A stretch of 64,000 nt of DNA. Source: Bacillota bacterium. Lineage in GTDB: Bacteria; Bacillota; Sulfobacillia; JAIMAT01. Positions 45,682 through 61,268 of the stretch are shown piece by piece. The stretch is taken from contig JASBVM010000005.1 in the NCBI GenBank assembly GCA_029961055.1, positions 129,487 through 193,486 on the forward strand, in the 5' to 3' direction. Position 1 is the stretch's first letter. Every line of letters starts with the position of its first letter. Made by a program: the position numbers and the translations under genes. The notes beneath the pieces are model-generated. The model was not told the origin of the DNA and did not search any database. It saw only the letters and a list, made by a program, of their open reading frames with translations.

Positions 45682-45814
45682 TTCGTCGCTCCCCTGCGCG
45701 CAATCGCCGAGGGGAGAAATTCTTTCCGGAGCAGGGAGGAGTTTGTCGAGGCGAGTCGAACTTGGCTTCCTGGTGGCTGGAAAGAGAGCCGCCGAGAGGT
45801 TTACATAAGGCGTT

Positions 45815-45903
45815 TCTCCGCTCAGAGCAAACCCGGCGAAAGCCGGGGACGCAAAGCCGCGGGCCCTCGTCGAGGAACGGCAGGGCAGCCAGGTTGCCGG
45901 AGA
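45815..45903 (+). promoter_or_regulatory. Class I cyclic-di-GMP riboswitch (GEMM-I) controlling the flagellar operon
   Basis: The segment contains AGAGCAAACC, a P2 stem CCGG closed by a GAAA tetraloop, then GGGACGCAAAGCC, which is invariant in class I c-di-GMP aptamers, and a P3 arm ending GGCAGCCAGGTTGCC. The outer stem P1 pairs TCTCCG (45815-45820) with CGGAGA (45898-45903). These match the Vibrio Vc2 aptamer (from memory) in order and spacing. An intrinsic terminator follows 23 bases later and flgB starts 167 bases downstream. The element senses the second messenger c-di-GMP, which usually switches cells from swimming to attachment. Confidence 0.93.
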
Positions 45904-45926
45904 GGCCGGATCAAGGGATCCTTCCT

Positions 45927-45960
45927 CCGCTTCCTGGCTTCTCGCCGGGAGGCGGTTTTC
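45927..45960 (+). terminator. Riboswitch expression-platform terminator before flgB
   Basis: A 12-base-pair stem (45927-45938 with 45944-45955, two G-U pairs), loop TTCTC, then TTTTC. Its 5' arm contains CCTGGCT (45933-45939), which is complementary to AGCCAGG (45887-45893) inside the aptamer, so the aptamer and the terminator could be in competition through an antiterminator. That fits an OFF switch when c-di-GMP is bound. The 110 bases between here and flgB hold no gene. Confidence 0.85.
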
Positions 45961-46070
45961 ATTTGGGAGATGGAAACCGCCGGACGAGGGAGGGGGCCGG
46001 AACCGAAGCGGCCGGATCCTGCAGCGGCAAGGAGGCGGGGGAACCCGCGCAAGGAGGAAGTGAGCGGCCC

Positions 46071-46406
46071 ATGGCGCCCGTATCGCCACTTCTGGATCAG
46101 ATGCAGGCGGGCCTCAACCTGGCCTCGCTCCGCCAGAGGCTGCTGGCCCAGAACGCGGCCAACGTGGAGACCCCGGGGTATCGGCCCCTGGACGCGGTGG
46201 CGGTGCAGGACCCCGCGGCGCCGGGCGGCTTCCAGGCCATGGTCGTGGCCTCCACCCCGGTGATGCGTCCCGACGGGAGCGGCGTCGATCCGGACCAAGA
46301 GGTGGTGGCCCTGACCCAGAACGCCCTCTGGTATGAGGCGATGGCCAGCCAGGCGGCAGCCGAGCTGGCGCGCCTCCGCACCGCTGTCACCGAGGGGAGG
46401 CAGTGA
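46071..46406 (+). CDS. flgB: Flagellar basal-body rod protein FlgB
   Basis: 111 residues. NAANVETPGYR near residue 30 is the conserved rod/hook N-terminal motif (ANVxTPGY), and the C-terminal helix QNALWYEAMASQAAAELARL is the matching partner. FlgB is the proximal rod. It is first in the long flagellar operon, behind the riboswitch. The ATG at 46071 follows AAGGAGGAAG with rather long spacing (13). It is a little shorter than the usual 125-135 residues. Confidence 0.9.
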   Translation: MAPVSPLLDQMQAGLNLASLRQRLLAQNAANVETPGYRPLDAVAVQDPAAPGGFQAMVVASTPVMRPDGSGVDPDQEVVALTQNALWYEAMASQAAAELARLRTAVTEGRQ

Positions 46407-46409
46407 GCG

Positions 46410-46817
46410 GTGAACCTCTGGCAGGCGATGGACATCAGCGCCTCTGGCCTGACCGCCGAGCGCTTCCGCATCGACCTCGTCGCCTCCAACCTGGCCAACG
46501 TCGAGAGCACCGCGCCGCGGCCCGGGGTTCCGCCCTTCCAGCGGCAGATGGCCTATTTCCAGGAGGCCTGGGGAAGCGACGGCCCGCAGGGCGTCGTCGT
46601 GGCCGGGGTCTACCGCGACCCGCGGCCGGGTCCTGTCGACTACCAGCCTGGCAACCCCGCTGCCGACGCCCGGGGCTACGTCCAGCTGCCCAACGTGGAC
46701 CCGACCCGCGAGACCATCGACCTGATCGCCGCCTCCCGTGCCTACGAGATGAACGTGACCGCCTTCACGGTCAGCCGTGACCTCTTCCGGCAGGCGCTGG
46801 CCGTGGGTCGGGCCTGA
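46410..46817 (+). CDS. flgC: Flagellar basal-body rod protein FlgC
   Basis: 135 residues. MDISASGLTAERFRIDLVASNLANVEST is the N-terminal rod pattern, broken only by one substitution, and YVQLPNVDPTRETIDLIAASRAYEMNVTAF the C-terminal one. FlgC is part of the proximal rod with FlgB and FlgF. The GTG at 46410 lies 3 bases after flgB, with GAGGGAGGCAGTGAGCG overlapping its end. Confidence 0.93.
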   Translation: MNLWQAMDISASGLTAERFRIDLVASNLANVESTAPRPGVPPFQRQMAYFQEAWGSDGPQGVVVAGVYRDPRPGPVDYQPGNPAADARGYVQLPNVDPTRETIDLIAASRAYEMNVTAFTVSRDLFRQALAVGRA

Positions 46818-46848
46818 CCGGCCCGGGCGGTAGGAAGGAGGATGTCCG

Positions 46849-47169
46849 ATGCCCACCGGGATCTCGCCCGTACAGAGCACCCCCGCCGCCCCCCTGGGCC
46901 CGGCAGGGCCGAGCGGGCCGGGTGTCCAGCCGCAAGGCGGCGCCGCCACTTCCAGCTTCGCGCAACAGCTGGCCGGGGCGCTGGACGGGGTCAACCAGCT
47001 GCAGCTGGAGGCGCAGCAGGCGGCCGCTTCGCTCCTCACCGGGGGCGCCGCTGACGTAGCCCAGGTGGTCCTCGCGAGCGAGAAGGCGACGCTGGCGCTG
47101 CAGCTGGTGGCCACCGTGCGGAACGAGGCCCTGGCAGCTTACCAGAGCGTCATGCAGACGCCGCTCTAG
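46849..47169 (+). CDS. fliE: Flagellar hook-basal body protein FliE
   Basis: 106 residues. The conserved half starts at SFAQQLAGALDGVNQLQLEAQ and continues with LLTGGAADVAQVVLASEKA and LQLVATVRNEALAAYQSVM, the FliE pattern. FliE joins the MS ring to the rod. The first 30 residues are rich in Pro/Gly/Ala. The ATG at 46849 follows TAGGAAGGAGG. Confidence 0.93.
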   Translation: MPTGISPVQSTPAAPLGPAGPSGPGVQPQGGAATSSFAQQLAGALDGVNQLQLEAQQAAASLLTGGAADVAQVVLASEKATLALQLVATVRNEALAAYQSVMQTPL

Positions 47170-47218
47170 GGCCTGACCAGGGCTGCCGGCTTCCGACGCC
47201 GGGCACGGGTGGAGCCAG

Positions 47219-48856
47219 ATGGGGGCGGGTCCGATCGGCATGAGTCTCTCCGTCAAGGGGCTGGGGAGCCAGCTGCGATCCTTCTGGGACCGGCTGGAGG
47301 CGCGCCAGCGCCGGTGGCTGGTCGCCGGCGCGCTGGCGGCGCTGGCGCTCGTCGCGGGCGCGGCCCTGCTGGGCCACCGGGGGCCCGCCATGGCGCCGCT
47401 CTTCTCGCACCTGCAGGCCCAGGACGCCGCCGCGATCGCGCAGCAGCTCCAGAGCCAGGGCGTGCCCTACCAGATCGCGGACCAGGGCCAGACCATCCTG
47501 GTGCCGCAGGACCAGGTGTATAAGCTCCGCCTGGACCTGGCCGCCAAAGGGCTTCCTTCCTCGGGCGTGGTCGGCCTTGAGAGCATGAACAGCCTGCCCC
47601 TGGGCGCCAGCTCCTTCCAGCAGCAGGTGGCCTATCTGCGCGCCCTGGAAGGGGAGCTGACGCGGACCATCCTCCAGATCGACGGGGTGGCCGGCGCGCG
47701 GGTGCACATCAACCTGCCCCAGCAGAGCGTCTTCGTCTCCCAGCAGCAGCCCGCCAGCGCTGCCGTCATGGTGGAGATGAAGCCCGGCCAGATGCTCGAT
47801 CCCACCCAGGTGGCCGGGATCCGCCACCTGGTCGCCGCCAGCGTCCCCAACCTGAAGCCGGAGGACGTGGTGGTGGTCGACCAGTTCGGCCGGGCGCTGG
47901 ATGGAAGCCCGGGCGACCAGGCTTCCTCCGAGCCGGCGCGCCTGGCCCAGGAGCGGAATTTCGAGCAACAGCTGCAGCAGTCGGTGGCCAGCCTTCTCGC
48001 GCAGATCTTCGGCCAGACCCCGGTGGCGGTCCGCGTCCGCGCCGACCTGAACATGGACCAGCAGACCATCCAGAGCGACCGGTACAGCCAGCCCCAGGGC
48101 GCCACCGGTACCGGCGGGACGACCGGCACCGGCGGCACGGGTGGCAACGCCGGCATCGTCAAGAGCGTCCACCAGCTCCAGGAACAGTTCACCGGTACCG
48201 GCGCGCCGCCCGCGGGCCTGGCGGGCACCGCCTCCAACCTGCCCCCGGGGAGCAGCGTGCCCACCTACCCCGTCGGCGGGAACGGCGGGAACAGCAGTTA
48301 CCAGAAGACCGACACCACCACCGACTACCTGGTCGACCACATCCAGCAGCAGATCAAGGTGGCCCCGGGCGCGGTGCAGCGGCTCTCGGTCGCCGTGGTG
48401 GTGGGAACCAACCTGACGCCGGGGCAGCAGCAGGCGCTGCAGCAGGTGGTCCAGGCGGCGGTGGGCGCCCAGCCGGGGCGCGACACGGTCTCCGTCCTCG
48501 GCATGCCCTTCCGCTCGGCGAATGCGGGTGCGGCGCGCCCGGTACCGGCGCGGCCCTCGCTCTTCCAGCCGCCGTACGTCTACGCGCTGGCAGGCGCCCT
48601 GGTGTTGCTGCTGGCGGCCGCCGTGGCCCTGCTCCGCGCCGCCCGCGCCAGGAAGCAGGCGGAGGAGCGCCTCCAGGAGATCCAGGCGCTCCTCGCCCGC
48701 CAGCCCGAGCCTGCGGCGGCGCCCGCGCCCGTCGCCCCGCCGCCGGAGAGCGGGGAGAGGGACGGCAAGGCGGCGCTGGAGAGGGCGCGGAGGCTGGCGA
48801 TGGCCGACCCGGAGACGGCGGCCAACGTGATCCGATCCTGGCTTTCGGAGAACTAG
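47219..48856 (+). CDS. fliF: Flagellar MS-ring protein FliF
   Basis: 545 residues. Two membrane helices bracket the periplasmic part: WLVAGALAALALVAGAALLG (about 35-54) and PPYVYALAGALVLLLAAAVALL (about 450-470). Between them are the secretin/YscJ-like motifs PLFSHLQAQDAAAIAQQL and ARVHINLPQQSVFVSQQ. A Thr/Gly-rich low-complexity stretch (about 295-310) lies in the variable loop. The cytoplasmic tail ends METAANVIRSWLSEN-like (ADPETAANVIRSWL), the FliG-binding end. FliF forms the ring that houses the export gate. The ATG at 47219 follows GGTGGAGCC; ATG 47240 is possible. Confidence 0.94.
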   Translation: MGAGPIGMSLSVKGLGSQLRSFWDRLEARQRRWLVAGALAALALVAGAALLGHRGPAMAPLFSHLQAQDAAAIAQQLQSQGVPYQIADQGQTILVPQDQVYKLRLDLAAKGLPSSGVVGLESMNSLPLGASSFQQQVAYLRALEGELTRTILQIDGVAGARVHINLPQQSVFVSQQQPASAAVMVEMKPGQMLDPTQVAGIRHLVAASVPNLKPEDVVVVDQFGRALDGSPGDQASSEPARLAQERNFEQQLQQSVASLLAQIFGQTPVAVRVRADLNMDQQTIQSDRYSQPQGATGTGGTTGTGGTGGNAGIVKSVHQLQEQFTGTGAPPAGLAGTASNLPPGSSVPTYPVGGNGGNSSYQKTDTTTDYLVDHIQQQIKVAPGAVQRLSVAVVVGTNLTPGQQQALQQVVQAAVGAQPGRDTVSVLGMPFRSANAGAARPVPARPSLFQPPYVYALAGALVLLLAAAVALLRAARARKQAEERLQEIQALLARQPEPAAAPAPVAPPPESGERDGKAALERARRLAMADPETAANVIRSWLSEN

Positions 48857-48879
48857 CCGGGCGGAGGGAGGTGACGAGG

Positions 48880-49881
48880 GTGGCGTTGCGATCGCGGCAG
48901 AAGGCGGCCATTCTCCTGCAGGCGCTGGGGCCCAAGGCCTCCCAGGGGCTCTTCCGCCACCTGAGCGACGAGGAGATCGAACAGTTGACGCTGGAGCTGG
49001 CCAACCTGGGGACGGTCCAACCCGAGACCGAGCAGAGCGTGCTCGAGGACTTCGTCACCCTGGGGGAGGCGCAGGGGTTCGTCCGCGTAGGCGGCATCTC
49101 GGCCGCGCGCCAGCTGCTGGAGCAGGTGGTCGGGCCCCAGAAGACCGCCGAGATCCTGCAGCGCCTGACGACGACGCTCCAGGTCCGCCCCTTCGACTTC
49201 ATCCGGCGCGCCGATGCCGCGCAGCTCCTCAACTTCCTGGAGGGCGAGCATCCCCAGACGGTGGCGCTGGTGATGGCGTACATGTCGCCGGAACAGGCCG
49301 CCCAGGTGCTGAGCGCGCTTCCTCCCGAGATGCAGGTCGACGTGGTCCGTCGCATCGCCACCATGGGCCGCACGTCGCCCGACGTGGTCAAGGAGGTGGA
49401 GCGCGTCCTCGAGAGGAAGCTGGCCTCCCTCACCACCCAGGGTTCCACGGAGATCGCGGGCGTCCAGGCGGTGGTCCAGATGCTCAACCGCGTCGACCGC
49501 AGCACCGAGCGGAGCATTGTCGAGAACCTGGGCACCACCGACCCCGAGCTGATGGAGGAGATCCGCCAGCGCATGTTCGTCTTCGAGGACCTCGTCTTCC
49601 TGGACGATCGCTCGCTCCAGCGGGCGCTGCGGGAGGTGGACCTGAACACCGACCTGCCGCTGGCCCTGCGCGGCGCCAGCGACGAGGTGAAGGCGAAGAT
49701 CCTCCGCAACCTCTCCCAGCGGGCCGGCCAGCTGCTCCAGGAGAACATGGACTACCTCGGCCCGGTCCGCCTGCGCGAGGTGGAGGAGGCCCAGCAGCGG
49801 ATCGTCTCCGCCATCCGCCGTCTGGAGGACGCGGGCGAGATCGTGATCAGCCGCGGAGGGAAGGACGAGATCCTTGTCTAG
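48880..49881 (+). CDS. fliG: Flagellar motor switch protein FliG
   Basis: 333 residues. QKAAILLQALGPKASQGLF at the start binds FliF; EHPQTVALVMAYMSPEQAA is the middle domain with the EHPQ motif; the C-terminal domain has MFVFEDLVFLDDRSLQRALREV with the charged torque residues. FliG couples stator force to rotation. GTG 48880 is chosen because a perfect GGAGGTGA (48867-48874) stands 5 bases before it; GTG 48871 lies within that Shine-Dalgarno. The last 8 bases overlap fliH. Confidence 0.95.
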   Translation: MALRSRQKAAILLQALGPKASQGLFRHLSDEEIEQLTLELANLGTVQPETEQSVLEDFVTLGEAQGFVRVGGISAARQLLEQVVGPQKTAEILQRLTTTLQVRPFDFIRRADAAQLLNFLEGEHPQTVALVMAYMSPEQAAQVLSALPPEMQVDVVRRIATMGRTSPDVVKEVERVLERKLASLTTQGSTEIAGVQAVVQMLNRVDRSTERSIVENLGTTDPELMEEIRQRMFVFEDLVFLDDRSLQRALREVDLNTDLPLALRGASDEVKAKILRNLSQRAGQLLQENMDYLGPVRLREVEEAQQRIVSAIRRLEDAGEIVISRGGKDEILV

Positions 49882-50605
49882 GCTGCTGAAGGGCGGAGGA
49901 GCGGCGGAAGGGAGGGCGACCACCGCCCTCTGGGAGGATCTGCCCCCCGAGCGCCGGACGCCGCCGGATCCGGAGCCACCTTCCGCGGTCGCCCGGGAGG
50001 AAGAGGCGGAGCGCGCGGCCGAACTGGCCGAGGAGCGCCGGCGCGCCGCGGCGGAGGGGTACGCCGACGGTTTCCGCCGCGGCCTCGACGAGGGACGGGC
50101 AGCCGGCCTGGAGGAGGGCCGCCGGCAGGGTTACGAGGAGGGCTACCAGGCGGCGATGGGCGACGCCGCCGAACGGGCGGCCGAGCTGGCGGCGGCGGCC
50201 GAGGACGTGCTCGCCCGCGCCGAGGCGGAAGCGGAGGCGAAGCTGGAGGCGATCCCGGCCGCGGTGGCCGCGCTGGCGGTGGAGGTGGGCAGCCGCCTCC
50301 TGCGCCGGCAGCTCCGGGCCGAGCCGGAGGCGCTGGTGGAGCGGGTGCGCGGGATCCTGGCCGAGGCGGGTCCCCGCTCCCGCGCGCGCATCCTGGCCAG
50401 CCGGAGCGACCGCGCCATCCTGGAGGCCAGCCTCGAGGCGCTGGGCAGTGCCTTCCCGGGGGTGGAGCTGAGCGTCACCGAGGACGGGCAGCTGGACCCC
50501 GGCGACCTCCGGGTGGAGACCGAGGCGGGCGACTTCGACGCCACGCTTCTCCGGGAGATCGCCGCCCTGCGGCGGCGGATCGAGGAGGCGCTCCGCCATG
50601 GCTGA
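49874..50605 (+). CDS. fliH: Flagellar assembly protein FliH
   Basis: 243 residues. A charged helix with repeated GxxxG steps (GYADGFRRGLDEGRAAGLEEG, then RRQGYEEGYQAAMGDA, about 60-95) is typical of FliH, followed by the V-ATPase E-like C-terminal domain (VAALAVEVGSRLLRRQLRAEP). FliH binds and restrains the FliI ATPase at the export gate. The TTG at 49874 lies within the end of fliG and the stop overlaps fliI by 8 bases. Confidence 0.88.
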   Translation: MSRLLKGGGAAEGRATTALWEDLPPERRTPPDPEPPSAVAREEEAERAAELAEERRRAAAEGYADGFRRGLDEGRAAGLEEGRRQGYEEGYQAAMGDAAERAAELAAAAEDVLARAEAEAEAKLEAIPAAVAALAVEVGSRLLRRQLRAEPEALVERVRGILAEAGPRSRARILASRSDRAILEASLEALGSAFPGVELSVTEDGQLDPGDLRVETEAGDFDATLLREIAALRRRIEEALRHG

Positions 50606-51950
50606 GGCCCGGCTGGCCAAGTTCCCGCAGGCGCCGGAGCTCCACTGGGCGGCGGCCAGCCGGGCGGTCCGGCGGAGCCGGCTCCTGGCACGCCAGGGGC
50701 GGGTCCGCCAGGTGGTGGGCCTCCTGGTGGAGGCGGAAGGTCCCCTCAGCGAGGTGGGCGAGCTCTGCCGGGTGGAGGAAGGCGGGGGGGAGGCGCTGGC
50801 GGAGGTGGTCGGCTTCCGCGAGGGACGCACGCTCCTCATGCCCCTGGGGGCGCTGCAGGGGATTCGGCCTGGCGCCCGGGTGGAGGCGCTGGGGCGGCGG
50901 CTGGAGATCGGCCTGGGCGAGGAGATGCTGGGGCGGGTGCTGGACGCGCTGGGCCAACCCATGGACGGGGGAGGCGGATGGCGGGTGGAGGAGCGCCGGC
51001 CCGTCCTGGCCGAGCCGCCGCGACCCTTCGAGCGGAGGCCCATCGATGAGCCGCTCTCGGTGGGCGTCCGCGTGATCGACGGGCTCCTCACCATCGGGCG
51101 CGGGCAGCGCGTCGGCCTCTTCGCCGGCTCGGGGGTGGGCAAGAGCACGCTCCTCGGCATGATGGCGCGCGGCACCGACGCCGACGTCAACGTCATCGCC
51201 CTGGTGGGCGAGCGGGGCCGCGAGGTGGGGGACTTCCTGGGGCGCGACCTGGGCGCCGACGGGCTGGCGCGCTCCGTGGTCGTGGTGGCCACGTCGGACC
51301 AGCCGCCCGTGGTCCGCATGAAGGCCGCCCATACGGCCACGGCCATCGCCGAGTTCTACCGGGACCGGGGGATGAACGTCCTCCTCCTGATGGACTCGGT
51401 CACCCGCTTCGCCATGGCCGCCCGGGAGGCGGGCCTGGCCACGGGCGAGCCGCCGGCCTCCAAGGGGTATCCCCCCTCGGTCTTCGCCGCGCTTCCCCTT
51501 CTGCTGGAGCGGGCGGGCAAGACGGCGAGCGGCAGCATCACCGGCTTCTACACGGTGCTGGTCGAGGGCGACGACATGAACGAGCCCATTGCCGACGCGG
51601 TCCGCGGCATCCTCGACGGCCACATCGTCCTCAGCCGGCGCCTGGCCTCGCGGGGTCACTACCCGGCCGTCGACCTGCTGGAGAGCGTCAGCCGCCTGAT
51701 GCCCCAGGTCACCTCGCCGGGGCATCAGGCCCTGGCCCAGACTTACCGCCGCCTCCTCTCCGTCTACCGCGAGGCGGAGGACCTGATCCAGGTCGGCGCC
51801 TACCGGCCCGGTTCGAGCCGTGAGATCGACGACGCGCTGGCGCGCATCGACGCCATGAACGCCTTCGCCGTGCAGGGGCAGGAGAGCCGGGTGGAGATGG
51901 AGAGCACGCTCCGCCAGCTGGAGGAGCTCTTCCAGGGGGTGCCGGGATGA
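50598..51950 (+). CDS. fliI: Flagellum-specific ATPase FliI
   Basis: 450 residues. Walker A GLFAGSGVGKSTLLGMMAR, ALVGERGREVGDFL, the Walker B part VLLLMDSVTRFAMAAREAGL and HYPAVDLLESVSRLM are the signatures of the F1-ATPase-related export ATPase. It delivers substrates to the flagellar type III gate with FliH and FliJ. The ATG at 50598 overlaps fliH by 8 bases; the stop overlaps fliJ by ATGA. The N-terminal beta-barrel domain starts near residue 30. Confidence 0.96.
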   Translation: MAEARLAKFPQAPELHWAAASRAVRRSRLLARQGRVRQVVGLLVEAEGPLSEVGELCRVEEGGGEALAEVVGFREGRTLLMPLGALQGIRPGARVEALGRRLEIGLGEEMLGRVLDALGQPMDGGGGWRVEERRPVLAEPPRPFERRPIDEPLSVGVRVIDGLLTIGRGQRVGLFAGSGVGKSTLLGMMARGTDADVNVIALVGERGREVGDFLGRDLGADGLARSVVVVATSDQPPVVRMKAAHTATAIAEFYRDRGMNVLLLMDSVTRFAMAAREAGLATGEPPASKGYPPSVFAALPLLLERAGKTASGSITGFYTVLVEGDDMNEPIADAVRGILDGHIVLSRRLASRGHYPAVDLLESVSRLMPQVTSPGHQALAQTYRRLLSVYREAEDLIQVGAYRPGSSREIDDALARIDAMNAFAVQGQESRVEMESTLRQLEELFQGVPG

Positions 51951-52408
51951 GCCGGTTTCGCTTCCGCCTGGAGCGGCTGCTCGATCTGCGGCGCCAGGAG
52001 CGCCGCGCCGCCGAGATGGCGCTCGGCCTGGCGCTGGCTGCGGAGAGGGAGGCGGAGGACCGGTGCCGCTTCCTGGAGTCGGCGCGCGCCGCCGCGCGGC
52101 GACGCTGGCTCCGGGAGCGGGGCGGCGCCCCGTCGGGCCTCTGGCGGCAGCGCGCCGCCTGGCTCGACGAGCTGGAACGCCTGCTGGCGGAGGCCCACAT
52201 CCAGCAGGAGCAGGCTTCGGCCCGGGTGGAGCAGGCGCGCGTCCAGCTGGCCTCGGCGCGGACCGCGGAGCGGAGCCTGGAGCGGCTCCGCCGGCGGCGC
52301 TTCCTTGCCTGGCGCATCGAGGCAGACCGGCAGGAGCAGCGCGAGCTGGACGAGCTGGCTCGGCTCCGCTGGCTCCGCCAGCGACAGGAAGGGGGCGAGC
52401 CCGCATGA
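51947..52408 (+). CDS. fliJ: Flagellar export chaperone FliJ
   Basis: 153 residues, almost all predicted coiled coil. The start FRFRLERLLDLRRQERRAAE and the heptad-rich body (LERLLAEAHIQQEQASARVEQ) fit FliJ. FliJ sits in the centre of the FliI hexamer and couples ATPase and proton-driven export. Weak conservation is normal for the family; the position between fliI and fliK supports the call. It overlaps both neighbours by 4 bases. Confidence 0.85.
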   Translation: MSRFRFRLERLLDLRRQERRAAEMALGLALAAEREAEDRCRFLESARAAARRRWLRERGGAPSGLWRQRAAWLDELERLLAEAHIQQEQASARVEQARVQLASARTAERSLERLRRRRFLAWRIEADRQEQRELDELARLRWLRQRQEGGEPA

Positions 52409-54000
52409 TCGCACCCCTGGACGGGGCTTCCATCCCACCGGCTGGCAACGGCACAGACCCTGCCCCTGCGGCGGGGAGTTCGACGCCGGTGACCGGGCCG
52501 GGGCCGGGAACGGGCACGGGCACGGGGGCAGGGGCTGCCTCCTTCGCCGCCCTCCTGGGGACGGCGCTGGACCGCCGCGACGCGGCAGTGGGGCGGCCCC
52601 GCAGCGCTCCAGATGGCGACCCGGCCCAGCTCCTGGTGACCGCCCTGGCAGGCGCCCTGGCCGGGCTCCCGGGGCCGGGCCAGGTGGATCCCCCGGAGAG
52701 CCCGGCGCGGCCGGCGGCGGGAGCCGGCGCTCCCGCTGTTCCGTCGGCTGCCGACCTGCGGGCAGCCGATCCGCAGACCACCGCGGAGGCACCCGCGGTG
52801 CCTGCCGGCGAGGCGGAGTCCCCGGTCGCCGGGGCGCCGGAGCCGGCCGCCGGCGAGGCGGCCCGTGTGGAGTCCGCCCCCCTCGCCATCACCTCCCCGC
52901 AGGGCGGGATCCCCACCCCTGCGCCGCAACCCCCTGCCTCTGCGACCGGCGGAGTGGGCTTGGGGCCTGCTGCGCCTTCAGCGCCGGAACTTGCGGTGGG
53001 CGGGCAGGCCGCGGCGGTACCGATCGTCCAGCCGCAGGGCCCTGAGAAGAAGGGCGCCGGCGCCGGTGCCGGTGGGGCAGCCCGTGCCCTCCCGGAGCAG
53101 GGGGGCCAGCCGACGGCGCCCGACACGGCCACCGGTGCAGCCGAGCCGCCTGCAGACATCCCGGCGGGGGCACCTGCCGCAGCGGGGCCGGGCACTGCGC
53201 CGGGGCCGGCCGCGGCGGGCCAGGGGAGCGACTCGGCAGCCTGGGGGCGTACGCGGATGGCCGTCGGGGAGACGTCTCCGGCCGCTGCCGCCTCCGTGGC
53301 GGACGACGGCCCGGCGCCGGCCGCCCGGAAGCCGCGGTCCGGGGCGGAGACCGGCACCGCGGGTGCGGCAGCCAGCGCCGATGGCGCCAACGCGGCCACC
53401 GGCGTCGGCTGGCAGGCAGCCCCTGCGCCCTCGGTGATGGCGAACGCTTCTCCCGGGCCGGCGCAGACGGTGCCGCTCCAGACCCACCCGCACGTCGCCG
53501 GGCCGGACGGGGGGGCGGCCGGCGCTGGCATGCAGCTCCCGCCGGAGGCGGCGCAGCTGCACGTGGGCGCGCGAGAGGCGCAGGTCCACGTCAGCGGGCA
53601 GCGCGTGGGCGATCTCTCCGCGTGGCTCCGGCTGGACAGCGGCGGCCAGGTGGAGATCCGCCTGGAGACCTCGCGCCTGGCGGCCCATGACCTGCTGATG
53701 CAGGCGCTGCCCTCGCTTCAGGAAGGGCTGGGCCGGCAGGGGGTGCCTCTTGGCGGGGTGACCGTGAGCGGTTTCGGCCCGGCCGGTCACGCGCCTGACC
53801 TGGCATGGGGCGCAGGCCTTGCCGGCGGAGGAGGACCGGGCGGCGGCGCCGCCGGCGGGCCGGCCGGCCACGGGCCCGGGGCCCGCCAGCCGGACCCGGG
53901 CCTGGGCTGGCCCGGGAACGCAGCGGGTGAGTCGGGTCTGGCCCCGCCGGAGCTGCGGCGCGCCCGCTGGCGCGGGACCGGAGTCGATCTGCTGCTCTGA
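52405..54000 (+). CDS. fliK: Flagellar hook-length control protein FliK
   Basis: 531 residues. The first about 370 are a low-complexity Ala/Pro/Gly-rich ruler-like region without predicted fold. The C-terminal Flg_hook domain is near residues 400-460: LRLDSGGQVEIRLETSRLAAH followed by LLMQALPSLQEGLGRQGVPL. FliK measures hook length and switches the export gate through FlhB. The composition of the N-terminal part is not informative, so identification rests on the C-terminal domain and the place between fliJ and flgD. The ATG at 52405 overlaps fliJ (ATGA). ylxF (motE), found here in B. subtilis, is absent. Confidence 0.82.
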   Translation: MIAPLDGASIPPAGNGTDPAPAAGSSTPVTGPGPGTGTGTGAGAASFAALLGTALDRRDAAVGRPRSAPDGDPAQLLVTALAGALAGLPGPGQVDPPESPARPAAGAGAPAVPSAADLRAADPQTTAEAPAVPAGEAESPVAGAPEPAAGEAARVESAPLAITSPQGGIPTPAPQPPASATGGVGLGPAAPSAPELAVGGQAAAVPIVQPQGPEKKGAGAGAGGAARALPEQGGQPTAPDTATGAAEPPADIPAGAPAAAGPGTAPGPAAAGQGSDSAAWGRTRMAVGETSPAAAASVADDGPAPAARKPRSGAETGTAGAAASADGANAATGVGWQAAPAPSVMANASPGPAQTVPLQTHPHVAGPDGGAAGAGMQLPPEAAQLHVGAREAQVHVSGQRVGDLSAWLRLDSGGQVEIRLETSRLAAHDLLMQALPSLQEGLGRQGVPLGGVTVSGFGPAGHAPDLAWGAGLAGGGGPGGGAAGGPAGHGPGARQPDPGLGWPGNAAGESGLAPPELRRARWRGTGVDLLL

Positions 54001-54055
54001 GGCCGGCGGCGACGCGGCTGAGGCGAGGGCGATCTCAGGAAGGAGGCGAATCGGG

Positions 54056-54385
54056 ATGGACGTGAGCGGAGTGGGCACCACGGGTGCCGCCACGGCGACG
54101 GGCACGGCACCGGGCACCGCTGGAACGAGCTCCGCACCGGGTTCGGCAACCGCCGATCCGCTGGCCGCGGTCCAGCTGCAGCAGAGCTTTCTGCAGCTGC
54201 TCGTGGCCCAGCTCCAGTACCAGAACCCGCTCCAGCCCATGGACGGGACGCAGTGGGTGACCCAGCTGGCGCAGTTCAGCATGCTGAGCGAGCTGGAGCA
54301 GATCCGGCAGAAGCTCGACCAGATCGCAGCCGCCCAGCAGCAGGGCGGCTCGGGCACGGCGGCACAGGGGGGTAGCCAGCCATGA
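54056..54385 (+). CDS. flgD: Flagellar hook assembly protein FlgD (short form)
   Basis: 109 residues. FLQLLVAQLQYQNPLQPMDG, then TQWVTQLAQFSMLSELEQI, is the conserved N-terminal FlgD (hook-capping) pattern. The Ig/tudor-like C-terminal domains of enterobacterial FlgD (about 230 residues) are missing, as in several Gram-positive forms. FlgD caps the growing hook. The ATG at 54056 follows AGGAAGGAGG and the stop overlaps flgE by ATGA. Confidence 0.92.
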   Translation: MDVSGVGTTGAATATGTAPGTAGTSSAPGSATADPLAAVQLQQSFLQLLVAQLQYQNPLQPMDGTQWVTQLAQFSMLSELEQIRQKLDQIAAAQQQGGSGTAAQGGSQP

Positions 54386-55242
54386 TGCGTTCCATGTACT
54401 CGGCGGTCTCGGGGCTCCGGGCCAACCAGACGGCCATGGACGTGATCGGCAACAACATCGCCAACGTCAACACGCCGGCCTTCAAGGCCTCGCGGAGCAT
54501 CTTCGCGGACATGTTCTACCAGATGCTGGCCGGCGCCGCCGCGCCGCAGGGCGGCGTGGGCGGCATCAACTCGCAGCAGGTGGGGCTGGGCGTCCGCCTG
54601 GCGAGCATCGACAAGCTGATGACGCAGGGCGCGCTCCAGTCGACCGGGGTGCCCACGGACCTGGCCATCCAGGGAGACGGATTCTTCGTACTGGGCGACG
54701 TACCCGGCAATCCCCCGACGGGCACTCCCACCAACATCACGTACACGCGGCTGGGCGACTTCAAGCTGGACTCGAACGGGTACCTCGTCGACGCCCTGAC
54801 CGGCAAGTATGTGCTGGCTCTCAATGCGCAGAACGGGAACCAGATCGGAGGTCCAATCCACATTCCTCTGGGCACGCAGACCGGCCAATTCGTCGACTTC
54901 AGCATCGCAAGCGACGGAACGATCAATGGCATCACCCCCGCGGGGGTGCCGCAATTCATCGCCCAGATAGCCCTCGCAACGTTCTCCAATCCGAGCGGCT
55001 TGGACGAGCTCGGCGGTGGACAGTACCAGGGCTCTCTCAACTCCGGGGCTCCGACCTACGGGCCCGGCGGCACCGGGACGCTAGCCGGCACCGTGAGCAG
55101 CAACTCGCTCGAGATGTCCAACGTCGACCTGGCGCAGGAGTTCACCAGCATGATCACCACCCAGCGCGGCTTCGAGGCCAACGCCAAGGTGATCACCACG
55201 GCCGACCAGATGCTCCAGGTGCTCACCAACCTGAAGCAGTGA
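54382..55242 (+). CDS. flgE: Flagellar hook protein FlgE (FlgE/FlgG family)
   Basis: 286 residues. MRSMYSAVSGLRANQTAMDV followed by GNNIANVNTPAFKASR is the N-terminal hook/rod motif, DLAIQGDGFFVLGD the central one, and SNSLEMSNVDLAQEFTSMIT with TQRGFEANAKVITTADQML the C-terminal one. It forms the hook or, less likely, a distal rod segment. The middle, about bases 54790-55010, uses more A/T-ending codons than its neighbours. The ATG at 54382 overlaps flgD. The 107 bases to flbD are strongly palindromic GC sequence. Confidence 0.9.
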   Translation: MMRSMYSAVSGLRANQTAMDVIGNNIANVNTPAFKASRSIFADMFYQMLAGAAAPQGGVGGINSQQVGLGVRLASIDKLMTQGALQSTGVPTDLAIQGDGFFVLGDVPGNPPTGTPTNITYTRLGDFKLDSNGYLVDALTGKYVLALNAQNGNQIGGPIHIPLGTQTGQFVDFSIASDGTINGITPAGVPQFIAQIALATFSNPSGLDELGGGQYQGSLNSGAPTYGPGGTGTLAGTVSSNSLEMSNVDLAQEFTSMITTQRGFEANAKVITTADQMLQVLTNLKQ

Positions 55243-55349
55243 TGGGCGCCGGGGCGCCGGGCCCGGGCCCGGACCCGGTCCGGATCCGGCCGCGCCGGCC
55301 GCGGAGGGGTCGGGGCCGGACCGACCCGACGAGAGGAAGGGGATGAGCC

Positions 55350-55559
55350 TTGATCTGGCTCACCCGCTTGAACGGTGACCGGCTGGTGATCAACGCCGAT
55401 ATGATCGAGACCATCGAGTCGACGCCCGACACGGTGATCACGCTCTCCAACGGCCACCGCTGGATCGTGGCGGAGACTCCGGACGAGGTGATCCGGCGCG
55501 TGGTGAGTTATCGGAGGAAGATGGCCTCCGGGCCGCGCCGGCGGGGGGTGTCCTCATGA
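55350..55559 (+). CDS. flbD: Flagellar protein FlbD (SwrD)
   Basis: 69 residues. MIWLTRLNGDRLVINADMIE and TIESTPDTVITLSNG followed by R.IVAETPDEVIRRV define the FlbD family (B. subtilis SwrD), a small protein that raises motor power or torque for swarming. The TTG at 55350 follows GAGAGGAAGGGGATGAGCC. The stop overlaps fliL by 4 bases. The location between flgE and fliL is conserved in Firmicutes. Confidence 0.92.
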   Translation: MIWLTRLNGDRLVINADMIETIESTPDTVITLSNGHRWIVAETPDEVIRRVVSYRRKMASGPRRRGVSS

Positions 55560-55987
55560 GCGGGGACGGGCGGCTCCCGGCCTCCAGGGGCTGGGCGCTG
55601 GGGCTCCTCGTGCTCCTTCTGGTCCTGAGTTCGGGCGCCTGCGCCCTTCCGGGCCAGGGGTCGAAGCCCGCAGCCCAGTCGGCCCCGCCGGTGGCGGTGG
55701 ACGTGGGGACGCTCACCACCAACCTGGCCGACGTCGACCCGCCCCGCCTGATCCAGGTGGACGTGGTGCTGGAGGTGGCCAGCCAGGCGCAGGCCGACCA
55801 GGTGAAGAGCGCCCAGCCCAGCGTACGCGACGCCATCCTCCGCGTCCTCCGCGGCAGCACGGCCAAGGAGTTGGCCGGCTCGCAGGGGATGGACGCGGTC
55901 CGGGCCCGGATCGAGAGCGAGGTGGCCAGGGCCGTCCCCAACGTGGTGGTGCGTGGCGTCTACTTCACCAATTTCGTCGTGCAGTGA
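55556..55987 (+). CDS. fliL: Flagellar basal body-associated protein FliL
   Basis: 143 residues. One N-terminal membrane helix (WALGLLVLLLVLSSGACAL, about 12-30) leads to a periplasmic domain with VDVGTLTTNLADVDPPRLIQ, VDVVLEVA, AILRVLRGSTAKEL and VVVRGVYFTNFVVQ. FliL surrounds stators near the motor and modulates torque. The Cys after the helix does not fit a lipobox well. The ATG at 55556 overlaps flbD. Confidence 0.88.
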   Translation: MSGDGRLPASRGWALGLLVLLLVLSSGACALPGQGSKPAAQSAPPVAVDVGTLTTNLADVDPPRLIQVDVVLEVASQAQADQVKSAQPSVRDAILRVLRGSTAKELAGSQGMDAVRARIESEVARAVPNVVVRGVYFTNFVVQ

Positions 55988-56018
55988 GCTGGAGTGAGCC
56001 GGAGTCAGGCTTGGTGAG

Positions 56019-56042
56019 CGCCGGGCGGCGGTCCGCCCGGCG
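56019..56042 (+). other. Perfect hairpin between fliL and fliM
   Basis: CGCCGGGCGG (56019-56028) pairs with CCGCCCGGCG (56033-56042) around the four-base loop CGGT in the 78-base gap between fliL and fliM. There is no T-run, so it is not an obvious terminator; it could set mRNA stability or act as an RNase III site within the operon. Confidence 0.55.
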
Positions 56043-56065
56043 GGTGCAGACGGGAGGAACGGTCG

Positions 56066-57016
56066 GTGATCGGGACGAGCGGTCGAGGGGGTGGGGCGGG
56101 CGGCACCCTCCGGGTACGGGCCTACGACTTTCGTAGGCCGGACAAGCTCTCCAAGGACCAGCTCCGGACGCTGGCCATGATCAACGAGAACTTCGCCCGC
56201 GCGGTCACCACCTATCTCTCCACCCGGCTGCGGGGGAGCGCCCAGGCGGTGGCCGTCCTGGCGGAGATGGTCAGCTTCGAGCAGTTCCTGGGCGAGATCG
56301 TGGAGCCCGCCATCATCGGCGTCGTCGGGGCGGAGGAGTGGCGGGGCGAGGCGGTGATGAGCCTCGACCCGCAGGTCGCCTTCGGCCTCATCGACCGCCT
56401 GCTGGGCGGGGCCGGCGAGGAGAGCTATCGCGTCCGCACCATCACCGAGATCGAACAGGCGCTGCTCCTGCGGCTCTTCCGCGATCTGGTCCAGAGCTGG
56501 CAGGAAGCCTGGGAGTCGGTGACGCCGATCCACGCGTCGCTGGCCGCGCTGGAGTCGAACCCGCTCCTTGCCCAGGTGGCGCCGCCGGGCGACATGGCCG
56601 TCCGCCTCCTGGTCGGCCTTCGCCTCGGGCGGCTGGAGGGCTTCCTCCGCATCGGCCTCCCGTACACCAGCGTCGCGCCGCTCATGCCGGCGCTCTCCGC
56701 CGAGCGCTGGCTGACGCGAGAGGGCGAGAGCCTGGTTCACCGGCAGGAAGAGATGCGGAGCGTGCTCCGCCGCGTCCCGGTCGAGATGACCGCCCTGCTG
56801 GGCCACGCCCACCTGAAGCTGCGCGACTTCATCCAGCTGGAGGTGGGGGACGTGATCCTGCTCGACCAGCGGGTGGGTGCGCCGCTTCAGGTGACGGTGG
56901 CAGGACGGCCCAAGTTCGTGGCGCGTCCCGGCCAGGTGGGACACCACCTGGCGGTGGAGATCGTGGCGCGCCTTCCGGAAGAGGACGGTGAGAGCGCATG
57001 GACGACTCGCTCTTGA
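56066..57016 (+). CDS. fliM: Flagellar motor switch protein FliM
   Basis: 316 residues. YDFRRPDKLSKDQLRTLAMI begins the conserved part, followed by the CheC-like middle domain (EIVEPAIIGVVGAEEWRGEA ... LIDRLLGGAG) and the C-terminal SpoA/FliN-like domain (LGHAHLKLRDFIQLEVGDVI). FliM is the C-ring component that normally receives CheY-P through an N-terminal peptide LSQxEIDALL; here that peptide is missing and replaced by a Gly-rich start (MIGTSGRGGGAGG). The GTG at 56066 follows GACGGGAGGAACGGTCG; no start further upstream restores the peptide. It overlaps fliY by 19 bases. Confidence 0.93.
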   Translation: MIGTSGRGGGAGGTLRVRAYDFRRPDKLSKDQLRTLAMINENFARAVTTYLSTRLRGSAQAVAVLAEMVSFEQFLGEIVEPAIIGVVGAEEWRGEAVMSLDPQVAFGLIDRLLGGAGEESYRVRTITEIEQALLLRLFRDLVQSWQEAWESVTPIHASLAALESNPLLAQVAPPGDMAVRLLVGLRLGRLEGFLRIGLPYTSVAPLMPALSAERWLTREGESLVHRQEEMRSVLRRVPVEMTALLGHAHLKLRDFIQLEVGDVILLDQRVGAPLQVTVAGRPKFVARPGQVGHHLAVEIVARLPEEDGESAWTTRS

Positions 57017-58008
57017 GCCAGGAAGAGATCGACGCCCTCAGGCGGAGCCTGGAGCAGGAGGAGAGGACGCCCGGCCTGCCCGGCGAGGCGGCGGAGGCGC
57101 TGGCCGACCTCTTCGCCCGTTCGCTGGAGGAAGCGCTGCACGACGCGGCGCCCGGGCTCCTGGACGCGGGTGCGGAGGTGGACGGGGAGGCGGCGCCGCC
57201 CAGCCAGGCCGCCTCGGCGGCCCGGGGCCGGCGGGTGAACGTGTCGGTCGGCGGCCAGGCCGGCTGGGAGGCGATCCTCTGGCTGGGGAACGGCGTGGAG
57301 CCGGCCGAGCCGCTCTTCGACGCCTGGTCGCGGAGGCTGGCGGAGGCGCTGGCGGGCGTTCTCAGCCGGAGCGTCGAGCTCCGCCCGGGCGAGGGGTGGG
57401 CGCCGGGGGGACCGCTTCCTGCCGAGCCGGTCGGTTTCGTCTTCCGCTGGCTGGGAGGCGGGCAGGGCAGGGAGGCGGGCCTGGTGGCCCCGCTGGGCAG
57501 CTTCCGGAACATCGTGGAGACGGCCACGCGGCCCGCCTCCGCCGGCGGCTCCGGCCCCGAGGAGGCTGCAGCGGCGGCCCGGCCGGTGGAGGCGCCGGCG
57601 GCACAGGTACCCGCGGTCCGGGAGCCCGCGGCCCGGGAGCCCGCGGCCGAGCCGGCGCCCCCGGCCCCGCGGAAGCAAGCCGGGACCGCGGGCGCCTCGA
57701 CGTCGCATGTCTGGCAGCAGCTGGGCGCGCCCCGGACCGCCCAGGAGGCGGCGGGACTGGAGCTCCTCTACGACGTGCCCCTCGAGATCAGCGTGGAGCT
57801 GGGGCGGGCCACCAAGTCGGTGCGCGAGGTCCTGGCGCTGGGGGCGGGTTCGGTCGTGGAGCTGGACCGGGCCGCCGGCGAGCCGGTCGACATCCTGGTC
57901 AACGGCAAGCTGGTGGCGCACGGCGAGGTGGTCGTGGTCGACGACAACTTCGGCATCCGGGTGACGGACATCCTCAGCCCGGCCGACCGGCTGCGCCAGC
58001 TCGGTTAG
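56998..58008 (+). CDS. fliY: Flagellar motor switch protein FliY (FliN fused to CheC-like domain)
   Basis: 336 residues. The first residues read LLSQEEIDALRRSL, the CheY-binding-type peptide. A weakly conserved CheC/CheX-like middle (about 30-180; ILWLGNGVEPAEPLFDAW) and an Ala/Pro-rich linker precede the C-terminal FliN/SpoA domain (LLYDVPLEISVELGRATKSV followed by REVLALGAGSVVELDRAAGE, ILVNGKLVAHGEVVVVDDNFG). In B. subtilis FliY is a C-ring protein and CheY-P phosphatase; the phosphatase motif (E..N) is not clear here, so activity is doubtful. No cheY follows. The ATG at 56998 lies inside the end of fliM. Confidence 0.88.
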   Translation: MDDSLLSQEEIDALRRSLEQEERTPGLPGEAAEALADLFARSLEEALHDAAPGLLDAGAEVDGEAAPPSQAASAARGRRVNVSVGGQAGWEAILWLGNGVEPAEPLFDAWSRRLAEALAGVLSRSVELRPGEGWAPGGPLPAEPVGFVFRWLGGGQGREAGLVAPLGSFRNIVETATRPASAGGSGPEEAAAAARPVEAPAAQVPAVREPAAREPAAEPAPPAPRKQAGTAGASTSHVWQQLGAPRTAQEAAGLELLYDVPLEISVELGRATKSVREVLALGAGSVVELDRAAGEPVDILVNGKLVAHGEVVVVDDNFGIRVTDILSPADRLRQLG

Positions 58009-58020
58009 GAGGGGCGACGG

Positions 58021-58371
58021 GTGTGGGCTGAGGTGCTGCGGGTCCTGCTGGGGCTGGTGACCTTTCTGGCCGTCCTCGGCCTCGCCTACTTCGTGGCCAC
58101 GGGCGTCGGCCGCTATGCGACGGGCGCGGGCGGGCCGATGCGCGTGGTCGGCCAGCTGGCGCTGGGGCCGCGGCGCGGCGTGACGCTGGTCCGCCTGGGG
58201 GACGAGCTCCTCCTCCTGGGCGTGACCGACCACCAGGTGACGCTCCTGGAGCGGGTGAGCGATCCCAGGCTGCTGGAGCGGCTCGACCCGCCGGGGAAGG
58301 GTGGCCCCGAGGGGGCGCGTTTCAGGGACTTCCTGGCGGAGCGGTTGGGGAGGAGGCGGGTGGAGCCATGA
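58021..58371 (+). CDS. fliO: Flagellar biosynthesis protein FliO/FliZ
   Basis: 116 residues. One membrane helix near the N terminus (VLLGLVTFLAVLGLAYFVAT, about 8-27), then a basic cytoplasmic domain with MRVVGQLALGPRRGVTLVRL, GDELLLLGVTDHQVTLLERV, the FliO pattern. FliO assists assembly of the FliP ring of the export gate. It lies 12 bases after fliY (where B. subtilis has cheY then fliZ) and overlaps fliP by ATGA. GTG start at 58021 after GGAGGGGCGACG. Confidence 0.9.
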   Translation: MWAEVLRVLLGLVTFLAVLGLAYFVATGVGRYATGAGGPMRVVGQLALGPRRGVTLVRLGDELLLLGVTDHQVTLLERVSDPRLLERLDPPGKGGPEGARFRDFLAERLGRRRVEP

Positions 58372-59045
58372 TCCCGTCGCTCCAGGTGACGCTCGGCGGT
58401 GCCGAGAACCCGCAGCAGGTGGCCACCACGCTCCAGATCCTCGGATGGCTCACGCTCCTGGCGCTGGCGCCGGCGGCCCTGGTGATGACCACCTCGTTCA
58501 CCCGGATCGTGGTCGTCCTCTCCTTCGTCCGGAACGCGCTGGCCACCGGGCAGACGCCGCCCAACCAGGTCCTGGTGGGGTTGGCGCTCTTCCTGACCCT
58601 CTTCACCATGGCGCCGGTCTACGACCAGGTCTACCGGCAGGCCTGGGTGCCCTACCAGGCCGGACAGATCAGCCAGCAGGCCGCGCTCCAGCGGGCGGAG
58701 GCCCCGCTGCGCGCCTTCATGCTGAGGGAGACGCGGCAGTCCGACCTCGAGCTCTTCGTCTCCATGGACAGTACCGGCCCCAAGCCGAAGACGCCGCAGG
58801 AGGCGCCGCTGCGCGACCTGATCCCGGCCTTCGTCATCTCCGAGCTGAAGAGCGCCTTCGAGATGGGCTTCGTGCTCTACCTGCCCTTTCTGGTGATCGA
58901 CCTGGTGGTCGCCTCCACCCTGATGTCCATGGGGATGTTCATGCTGCCGCCGATGCTGATCTCGCTTCCTTTCAAAATTTTGCTCTTTGTGCTGGTGGAC
59001 GGCTGGCACCTCTTGGCCCAGTCGTTGATCGCCAGCTACCACTGA
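58368..59045 (+). CDS. fliP: Flagellar biosynthetic protein FliP
   Basis: 225 residues. LAPAALVMTTSFTRIVVVLS, RNALATGQTPPNQVLVGLAL and MGMFMLPPMLISLPFKILLF are the FliP signatures. Four membrane helices are evident. FliP with FliQ and FliR makes the export gate core. The ATG at 58368 overlaps fliO. There is no extended cleavable signal sequence, as in B. subtilis FliP. Confidence 0.96.
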   Translation: MIPSLQVTLGGAENPQQVATTLQILGWLTLLALAPAALVMTTSFTRIVVVLSFVRNALATGQTPPNQVLVGLALFLTLFTMAPVYDQVYRQAWVPYQAGQISQQAALQRAEAPLRAFMLRETRQSDLELFVSMDSTGPKPKTPQEAPLRDLIPAFVISELKSAFEMGFVLYLPFLVIDLVVASTLMSMGMFMLPPMLISLPFKILLFVLVDGWHLLAQSLIASYH

Positions 59046-59060
59046 GCGCCGCGCGGGGGT

Positions 59061-59336
59061 GTGGCGATGACGGAGAGCGGGGCGTTGGAGGTCTTCCGCC
59101 AAGCGATCTGGTTGACCCTCTTGGTCTCGGCGCCGCTCCTGGGACTCAGCCTGGCGGTGGGCTTTGCCGTCAGCCTCTTTCAGGCGACCACCCAGATCAA
59201 CGAGCAGACGCTCACCTTCGTCCCCAAGATGGTGGTCGTCCTGCTGGCGCTGGTCCTGCTGGGTCCCTGGATGCTCCGGCAGCTGGTCGACTTCGCCGGT
59301 GGCATCCTGGGCCACTTGGGCTCGTTCGTGGGCTGA
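59061..59336 (+). CDS. fliQ: Flagellar biosynthetic protein FliQ
   Basis: 91 residues with two membrane helices (WLTLLVSAPLLGLSLAVGFA and MVVVLLALVLLGPWMLRQLV). SLFQATTQINEQTLTFVPK is the invariant loop. FliQ packs around the FliP/FliR export gate. GTG 59061 or ATG 59067 could start it. 10 bases separate its stop from fliR. Confidence 0.96.
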   Translation: MAMTESGALEVFRQAIWLTLLVSAPLLGLSLAVGFAVSLFQATTQINEQTLTFVPKMVVVLLALVLLGPWMLRQLVDFAGGILGHLGSFVG

Positions 59337-59346
59337 GGCGTCCGGC

Positions 59347-60147
59347 GTGGAAGGGGTGGCTTCCGAGTGGCCGTTCTCGCTCTGGTTCGATCCCGGACGG
59401 CTGGCGCTCTTCGGGCTGGTGCTCGCCCGGGTGACGGGGATGCTGCTGGCGGCGCCGGTCTTCGGCCACGCCGCGGTGGGCTGGCGGGTCCGGCTGGGCC
59501 TGGCCATGGCGCTGGCGCTGCTGGTCAGCTTTCCCCTCGGCTCGGCCCGTGTGACGCTGTGGAGTTCGGGACTGGCCTACGCCGGGGCGCTGCTGGGCGA
59601 CCTGGCCGTGGGCCTGACCATCGGGCTCCTGGCCATGACCATCCTCAGCGCCGTCCAGGTGGTGGGCGAGCTGCTCGGCGTCCAAATGGAGTTCTCGCTG
59701 GCGCAGCTGCTGGACCCCGCCTTCGCGCAACCGGTGCCGCTGGTCAGCACGCTCCTCTGGCTGCTCCTGCTCTGGCTCTGGCTTCTGGCCGACGGGCACC
59801 ATGTCCTGATCGCGGCGCTGGTCCAGAGCTTCCGCCACATCCCGCCCGGCGGTCTCCACTGGACGCCGGCGTGGAGCGAGCTCTTCCTGCAGGCGGTCAG
59901 CTGGAGCTTCTACACCGCGCTGGAGCTGGCGGCCCCGCTCCTGGCGGCGCTCCTGCTGGTCAACGCCGCCTTCGGCCTGGTGGCCCGGGCGGTGCCGCAG
60001 GTGAACGTCCTCCTCTCCCAGCTCCCGGCGCTGGCGCTGGTGGGCCTCTTCCTGCTGGCGGCGCTCGTGCCCGCCTTTCCGCTGGTGCTCCAGACGCTGG
60101 CGCCCAAGGTGGAGGAGGTGCTGGCCGCCTGGCTTCGCCTGCCCTGA
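59347..60147 (+). CDS. fliR: Flagellar biosynthetic protein FliR
   Basis: 266 residues, hydrophobic with six or more membrane helices. LVLARVTGMLLAAPVFGH, VQVVGELLGVQMEFSLAQLL and NAAFGLVARAVPQVNVLLSQ fit FliR. It completes the FliPQR gate. GTG 59347 is taken; GTG 59356 after GGAAGG is an alternative. Its stop overlaps the CTG start of flhB by 4 bases (CTGA). Confidence 0.93.
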   Translation: MEGVASEWPFSLWFDPGRLALFGLVLARVTGMLLAAPVFGHAAVGWRVRLGLAMALALLVSFPLGSARVTLWSSGLAYAGALLGDLAVGLTIGLLAMTILSAVQVVGELLGVQMEFSLAQLLDPAFAQPVPLVSTLLWLLLLWLWLLADGHHVLIAALVQSFRHIPPGGLHWTPAWSELFLQAVSWSFYTALELAAPLLAALLLVNAAFGLVARAVPQVNVLLSQLPALALVGLFLLAALVPAFPLVLQTLAPKVEEVLAAWLRLP

Positions 60148-61268
60148 GGCGGTTCGACCTCCAGCTCTTCGCCGAGGAAGAGGCAGGCGACCGGACCGAG
60201 CCGCCCACGCCCCGAAAGCGCGAGCGCGCCCGCCGTGAGGGGCAGTTCCCGCGCAGCGCCGAGCTGACGGGGGCGCTCCTCCTCCTGGGCGGCACGGCCT
60301 TGCTGGTCACGGCCGGGCGGGCCGCGCAGGACCGGCTGACCAGCTTCCTCGCCGGGACCTGGGAGGGCTGGCTGGCGCGCGGTCCGCGGGTGGGCGAGCT
60401 GGGGCTGCCGGAGGCGCAGGGGCTTCTGCTCCGGGGACTGCAGGCGGGAGCGATGGCGGTGGCTCCCTTCCTGGTGGCGACGGTCGCCGTCAGCGTGGCC
60501 TCCGGCCTCGCCCAGAGCCGCTTCGCGCTGACGGGTTCGGGGCTCGTGCCCAAGCTCTCGCGGATCAACCCGCTGGCCGGCCTCCAGCGCCTCTTCTCGC
60601 TCCAGGCGCTGGTGGAGCTGCTCAAGGCGCTGCTCAAGCTGGGGCTGATCGCGGGCCTCACCTACGGCGCGGTCCGGACGGCGGTCGAGGCGGCTCCGGG
60701 TCTCCTGGGCGCGCCGCTGGCAGGGGTCCTCCAGTGGCTCTATCAGGGCGTCGCCCGGCTCTTCCTGGAGGTCGGGCTGGCCTGGCTGGTGGTGGCGGCG
60801 GGCGACTACGCCTACCAGTTCTGGTCCACCGAGAAGCGGCTGCGCATGACGCCGTACGAGCTCCAGCGCGAGCTGCGCGAGACGGAGGGCAACCCCGAGG
60901 TGAAGCGCCGCATCCGCCGCCTGCAGGCGCAGATGGCGGCGGCGCGGATGATCGAGGCGGTCCGGCGGGCGCGGGTGGTGGTGGCCAACCCCACCCACTT
61001 CGCGGTGGCGCTGGCCTACGAGCCGGAGCGGATGGAGGCGCCCCAGGTGGTCGCCCGCGGCGCCGACGAGCTGGCGCTCCGGATCCGCGCCGAGGCCTGG
61101 CGCCGGCAGGTACCCATCGTGGAGGACCCGCCGCTGGCGCGGGCGCTCTACGCCTCCACCCGCGTGGGGCAGACGATCCCCGTCCACCTCTACAAGGCGG
61201 TGGCAGAAGTGATGGCCTGGGTCTGGCAGCTGGAGCGGGGAGGGACCGCGACATGGCGTCGGCGTTGA
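60144..61268 (+). CDS. flhB: Flagellar biosynthetic protein FlhB, apparent CTG start
   Basis: 374 residues. After the start, RRFDLQLFAEEEAGDRTEPP and TPRKRERARREGQFPRS match the FlhB N terminus (in B. subtilis RLDLQFFAGEKTEKATPKK-like). Four membrane helices follow, then the cytoplasmic domain with the autocleavage site NPTH (Asn282-Pro283) in VVVANPTHFAVAL. FlhB is the substrate-specificity switch of the export gate and a partner of FliK. There is no ATG, GTG or TTG before the first membrane helix; the CTG at 60144 overlaps the fliR stop exactly as an ATGA pair would, so a CTG start is inferred. flhA overlaps its end by 16 bases. Confidence 0.92.
   Translation: MRRFDLQLFAEEEAGDRTEPPTPRKRERARREGQFPRSAELTGALLLLGGTALLVTAGRAAQDRLTSFLAGTWEGWLARGPRVGELGLPEAQGLLLRGLQAGAMAVAPFLVATVAVSVASGLAQSRFALTGSGLVPKLSRINPLAGLQRLFSLQALVELLKALLKLGLIAGLTYGAVRTAVEAAPGLLGAPLAGVLQWLYQGVARLFLEVGLAWLVVAAGDYAYQFWSTEKRLRMTPYELQRELRETEGNPEVKRRIRRLQAQMAAARMIEAVRRARVVVANPTHFAVALAYEPERMEAPQVVARGADELALRIRAEAWRRQVPIVEDPPLARALYASTRVGQTIPVHLYKAVAEVMAWVWQLERGGTATWRRR

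Follow-up and report, generated by a model that had tools for sequence, protein, structure and literature searches.

A GEMM-I riboswitch with an A at its specificity base as the likely OFF switch of a flagellar operon in a GC-rich Firmicute

Which second messenger does the leader in front of flgB obey in this bacterium, and does that messenger start or stop the making of flagella? The leader lies in a stretch of 64,000 nucleotides, which we call the window and analysed as a whole. The original prediction was that it carries a class I c-di-GMP riboswitch and a terminator, and that it controls the flagellar genes as a riboswitch of this kind does in Clostridioides difficile. We believe that the GEMM-I riboswitch acts as an OFF switch on transcription of the entire operon, from flgB to fliA, and we give this reading a probability of about 0.7. 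The leader is an ordinary member of its family in the usual place, and its oddity at the base that governs ligand specificity is a small one. That base still has to be dealt with, and much of what follows concerns it.

The aptamer itself leaves little to argue about. The Rfam model RF01051 (c-di-GMP-I) matches positions 45816-45901 of the forward strand, which also carries the terminator, the antiterminator and the genes from flgB to flhF. The match reaches 64.4 bits (E 2.6e-10 per 64 kb) against a cut-off of 35 bits, it is aligned over the full model (1-87), and no other family gives an above-cut-off Rfam match in the 64-kb window. Our own class model, R1, scores the same aptamer at 78.0 bits. 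The model alignment and the centroid fold contain the P1-P2-P3 fold with its GAAA tetraloop. In the centroid fold of 45808-45910 the 5' strand of P1 (UUCUCC, 45814-45819) has GGAGAG (45899-45904) as its partner, and both strands are unchanged in the congeners G001 and G002. By its fold this is a genuine GEMM-I aptamer, and the class that had been predicted for it is confirmed at full length. The c-di-GMP-I-GGC family (RF03167) belongs to the same clan and was rejected. It scores 58.5 bits, under its cut-off of 59, and its consensus reads GCGAA where the window reads GCAAA. The difference falls on the equivalent of A47 in Vc2, which is A in the window (45853) and G in the GGC variant, so the window aptamer is not that variant.

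Two more c-di-GMP-I aptamers occur in the window's genome (G000). One, on contig C35 (L001 1500-1591, reverse strand, 71.5 bits), precedes a small gene with a sigma-70 region 4. The other, on C54 (L003 1501-1590, forward strand, 47.9 bits), is followed by a transglutaminase-like gene whose start resembles a signal peptide and which has a convergent sortase gene as its neighbour.

The first gene of the operon is flgB (46071-46406), whose match to TIGR01396 (E 2.4e-13) is under the curated cut-off; flgC, fliE, fliF, fliG and the rest come next. Pfam and NCBIfam models place flgC, fliE, fliF, fliG, fliH, fliI, fliJ, fliK, flgD and a hook/rod gene within 46410-63301, and after the hook/rod gene, within the same limits, fliL, fliM, fliN/Y, fliO, fliP, fliR, flhB and flhA. 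The gene order from flgB to flhF is therefore as originally described, but the operon is not complete in the window: flhF (63298-64000, locus L128) is cut from about 63298 by the window's edge. Past that edge come a gene for a MinD-type ATPase, which its position marks as flhG, then a PilZ/YcgR gene, fliA, with which the operon ends, and finally rpsB. Upstream of the leader are hslV and hslU. The PilZ/YcgR gene, of PilZNR-PilZ (YcgR-like) type, lies between flhG and fliA, just beyond the window (L128:8592-9419; contig C5, about 194591-195418), and its protein has the c-di-GMP motifs RSVVR (RxxxR) and DVSAGG (DxSxxG). Relatives of YcgR brake motility in their c-di-GMP-bound form (PMC12564702).

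A promoter scan found no sigma-70-like promoter just upstream, and this weighs against the main reading. Upstream of the aptamer, at 45740-45770, there is a Spo0A-box-like pair of motifs, TTTGTCGA and GTCGAA, mostly kept in both congeners, and this may tie sporulation to flagellar control.

The direction of the switch depends on what stands between the aptamer and flgB. An intrinsic terminator occupies 45927-45959. Its hairpin (45927-45955) has 12 pairs and a 5-nt loop and is followed by TTTTCATTTG, with TTTT at 45956-45959. It folds at -24.1 kcal/mol (z = -5.2), which none of 200 shuffles equalled, and the same hairpin is present in G001 and G002, so that the flgB leaders of the congeners share the terminator as well as the P1 strands. 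The 12-bp stem and the TTTT had been predicted correctly; the spacing from the aptamer had been put at 23 bases and is 25 in our analysis. The T-run is short, and this counts against the OFF-switch reading. A further and very stable hairpin, GGCGGUUUUCAUUUGGGAGAUGGAAACCGCC at 45951-45981 (-19.8 kcal/mol, z -6), overlaps the 3' arm of the terminator and the T-run; the same form was not seen in the congeners.

An antiterminator is predicted at 45896-45944. Its 5' strand is the 3' strand of P1 (45896-45910), and its 3' strand (45926-45938) includes the full 5' arm of the terminator (45927-45938). On the P1 side of this fold GCCGG, GAGGC and GGA are paired, their partners being UCC, GCUUC and CUGGC. 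P1 and the terminator are compatible with each other, and both compete with the antiterminator, which takes up the 3' strand of P1 as well as the entire terminator arm. In the window alone the structure (-22.0 kcal/mol, z -1.88) stands out only weakly from its shuffles, 13 of 200 of which are as good, and a cruder duplex test of the P1 3' strand against the terminator arm is not significant. The class offers a larger set of leaders. A simple rule calls terminators in 29 of 42 class leaders versus 27 of 126 shuffles, and all 29 begin downstream of the aptamer, so the two structures, aptamer with ligand and terminator, can form side by side. In every one of these 29 leaders the stretch that runs from the 3' strand of P1 through the 5' arm of the terminator has a better fold than its shuffles (mean z -2.0, Wilcoxon p 2e-9), and P1-to-arm pairs are found in every one as well. 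A low z alone could reflect other structure; the shared P1-to-arm pairing is the specific part. Plain duplexes between the two strands give a weak signal class-wide (Wilcoxon p 0.003), and the longest contiguous complementarity per class leader is mostly no better than in shuffles.

We infer ligand binding and polarity in cells from this architecture. At low c-di-GMP the 3' strand of P1 would pair with the terminator's 5' arm, the antiterminator would form and the polymerase would continue into flgB. Binding of c-di-GMP would hold P1, the terminator hairpin would form about 25 bases downstream and transcription would end near 45960. High c-di-GMP would then most likely turn off flagellum production. 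The opposite polarity is found in Geobacter, whose pilM riboswitch is an ON switch with a terminator that includes the aptamer-stabilising strand. It is of the GEMM-Ib type, which senses 3',3'-cGAMP, and it shares with the window the fold and an A at the specificity base. The window differs in that its terminator is separate and in that no Hypr GGDEF was found in its genome. We reject an ON-switch geometry of the pilM kind for the window, where terminator and aptamer do not overlap. The closer likeness is to Cd1 (Cdi1_3), which stands before flgB in C. difficile. The two have in common the aptamer class, the position before flgB, an operon that contains fliA, a separate downstream terminator and an antiterminator, predicted in the window, in which the 3' strand of P1 pairs with the terminator 5' arm. 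They differ in the base at the G20/G11 position, which is A in the window, and in the GC-rich sequence; flgB begins 170 bases past the aptamer in the window, whereas in C. difficile the promoter lies 496 bp before flgB. The C. difficile flgB riboswitch of this design has been demonstrated to be an OFF switch (PMC9262584; PMC3649979). The idea of the same control in both thus has support from the architecture, with the antiterminator set against P1 and terminator in the OFF manner, and the assignment of the ligand carries a caveat, which is A20.

The original prediction overlooked this base. In the motif AGAGCAAACC an A replaces the consensus G at the specificity position: 45826, aligned with the conserved G at position 11 of RF01051, is A. 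For positions in the window we use the numbering of Vc2 and its ligand triad G20-A47-C92. We aligned 86 aptamers, 84 from upstream of flagellar genes and the other two from elsewhere in the window's genome. Position 20 is G in 83 of them and A in three, namely the window and the genomes G020 and G117. It is G in the flgB leaders of both congeners and in the other two aptamers of the window's own genome, so the base varies between operons within one cell. The A47 equivalent, which stacks in the ligand site, is invariant (86/86; 45853 in the window), and the C92 equivalent (45897), which makes the Watson-Crick contact to a ligand G, is C in 84 of 86. With these two kept, the triad of the window reads A-A-C, as in the GEMM-Ib cGAMP aptamers, and not the canonical G-A-C of c-di-GMP aptamers. 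An A at position 20 is the mark of cGAMP-type aptamers.

The A at 45826 points to an altered ligand preference, and it counts against our main reading. The most serious rival builds on it. The riboswitch may sense 3',3'-cGAMP, or make little difference between cGAMP and c-di-GMP, and the flagella would obey a different messenger from those of their relatives. The recurrence of A20 in G020 and G117 speaks for this, as does the G20 of the two sister aptamers, and a GEMM-I aptamer with the G20A change serves as a sensor for c-AMP-GMP (PMC11352751). However, the experiments on Cd1 suggest a milder effect. Its G11 is the equivalent of G20 in Vc2, the G11A change did not greatly affect c-di-GMP binding, and the position is described as contributing to selectivity without being a strict filter (PMC9262584). 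The G-to-A at 45826 probably just reduces affinity or loosens selectivity.

The enzymes of the host also argue against cGAMP. Hypr GGDEF domains, which make cGAMP, have a Ser in place of the canonical Asp (PMC6456294). Three GGDEF domains in the genome of the window keep the canonical Asp and read GH..GD. A fourth match, behind an EAL domain, is weak and degenerate, and there are four EAL domains in all. No Hypr Ser occurs among the readable GGDEF domains of G000, G020 and G117; one domain of G020 (L166) and a few of G117 are not readable by motif. A search of G000 for SMODS (DncV-type) cyclases gave no match, so production of 3',3'-cGAMP by the host finds no support among Hypr GGDEF and SMODS/DncV-type enzymes. 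Riboswitches for cGAMP are known from several gram-negative bacteria (PMC9262584). Given the readable GGDEF domains without Hypr Ser, the lack of a SMODS match and the PilZ/YcgR gene inside the operon, we infer that c-di-GMP is the likelier ligand. We consider it unlikely that cGAMP is the chief ligand or shares that role. A more specific version holds that in one species a single G-to-A shifted the preference of the flgB riboswitch toward cGAMP, or toward both messengers, while the congeners and the two other riboswitches of the same genome keep G, and this too we think rather unlikely.

A second rival is decay. G20A, together with the other places where the aptamer departs from the consensus, could mark the beginning of a loss of function, leaving the terminator as a fixed attenuator. 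With an R1 score of 78.0 the window ranks below both congeners (81.0 and 84.2), and its RF01051 score falls under most of the class matches listed. Nevertheless that score is still far over the cut-off, and P1, P2, A47, C92, the terminator and the antiterminator are all kept, so we regard decay as quite improbable. An error of base calling or assembly in this draft genome (54 contigs), behind which the true aptamer is an ordinary c-di-GMP-I, is more doubtful still: the species is represented by one genome and its congeners have G, but no local sequence damage is seen and A20 recurs in two other genomes.

The OFF switch that we favour belongs to a widespread arrangement. Our sample of the class comprised 61 genomes, among them that of the window, and the counts depend on the genomes drawn. 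RF01051 is present in 58 of them and fliE in 53, for 52 of which the region upstream of fliE was taken. The aptamer lies in that region in 42 of the 52, within about 1.7 kb of fliE in 40 cases and at about 3.4 kb in two; of the ten negatives, three are limited by contig ends. Across the phylum 122 of 149 genomes have RF01051, and in its other classes the aptamer stands upstream of fliE in 38 of 89 sampled genomes, within about 2 kb, one of these (L180) being weak. The suggestion that this control has been taken for younger or narrower than it is can therefore be called only partly justified, but with 42 of 52 genomes in the class and 38 of 89 in other classes there is little left to be surprised at. 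A riboswitch on the flagellar operon is the standard control in this class. Four genomes have tandem c-di-GMP-I aptamers before the flagellar operon (L072, L085, L184 and L158). In G012 a reduced aptamer is found upstream of fliE (L080 1673-1739), with a short P3 and a P2 that lacks the GAAA tetraloop (CAATCCCTGGATGGGAGC).

It is important to realize that such a riboswitch before the flagellar operon is nothing peculiar to C. difficile: in a large class of Firmicutes with deep branches it is the normal state of affairs. With a PilZ/YcgR gene in the operon, the riboswitch would govern the brake protein of its own messenger, and c-di-GMP would both halt new flagella and brake existing ones. The A20 variant beside its G20 congeners is a clean natural pair in which the messenger preference set by one base can be measured in a real operon. 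If retuning toward cGAMP proved true, the second-messenger specificity of a flagellar operon would have changed in nature, and very recently.
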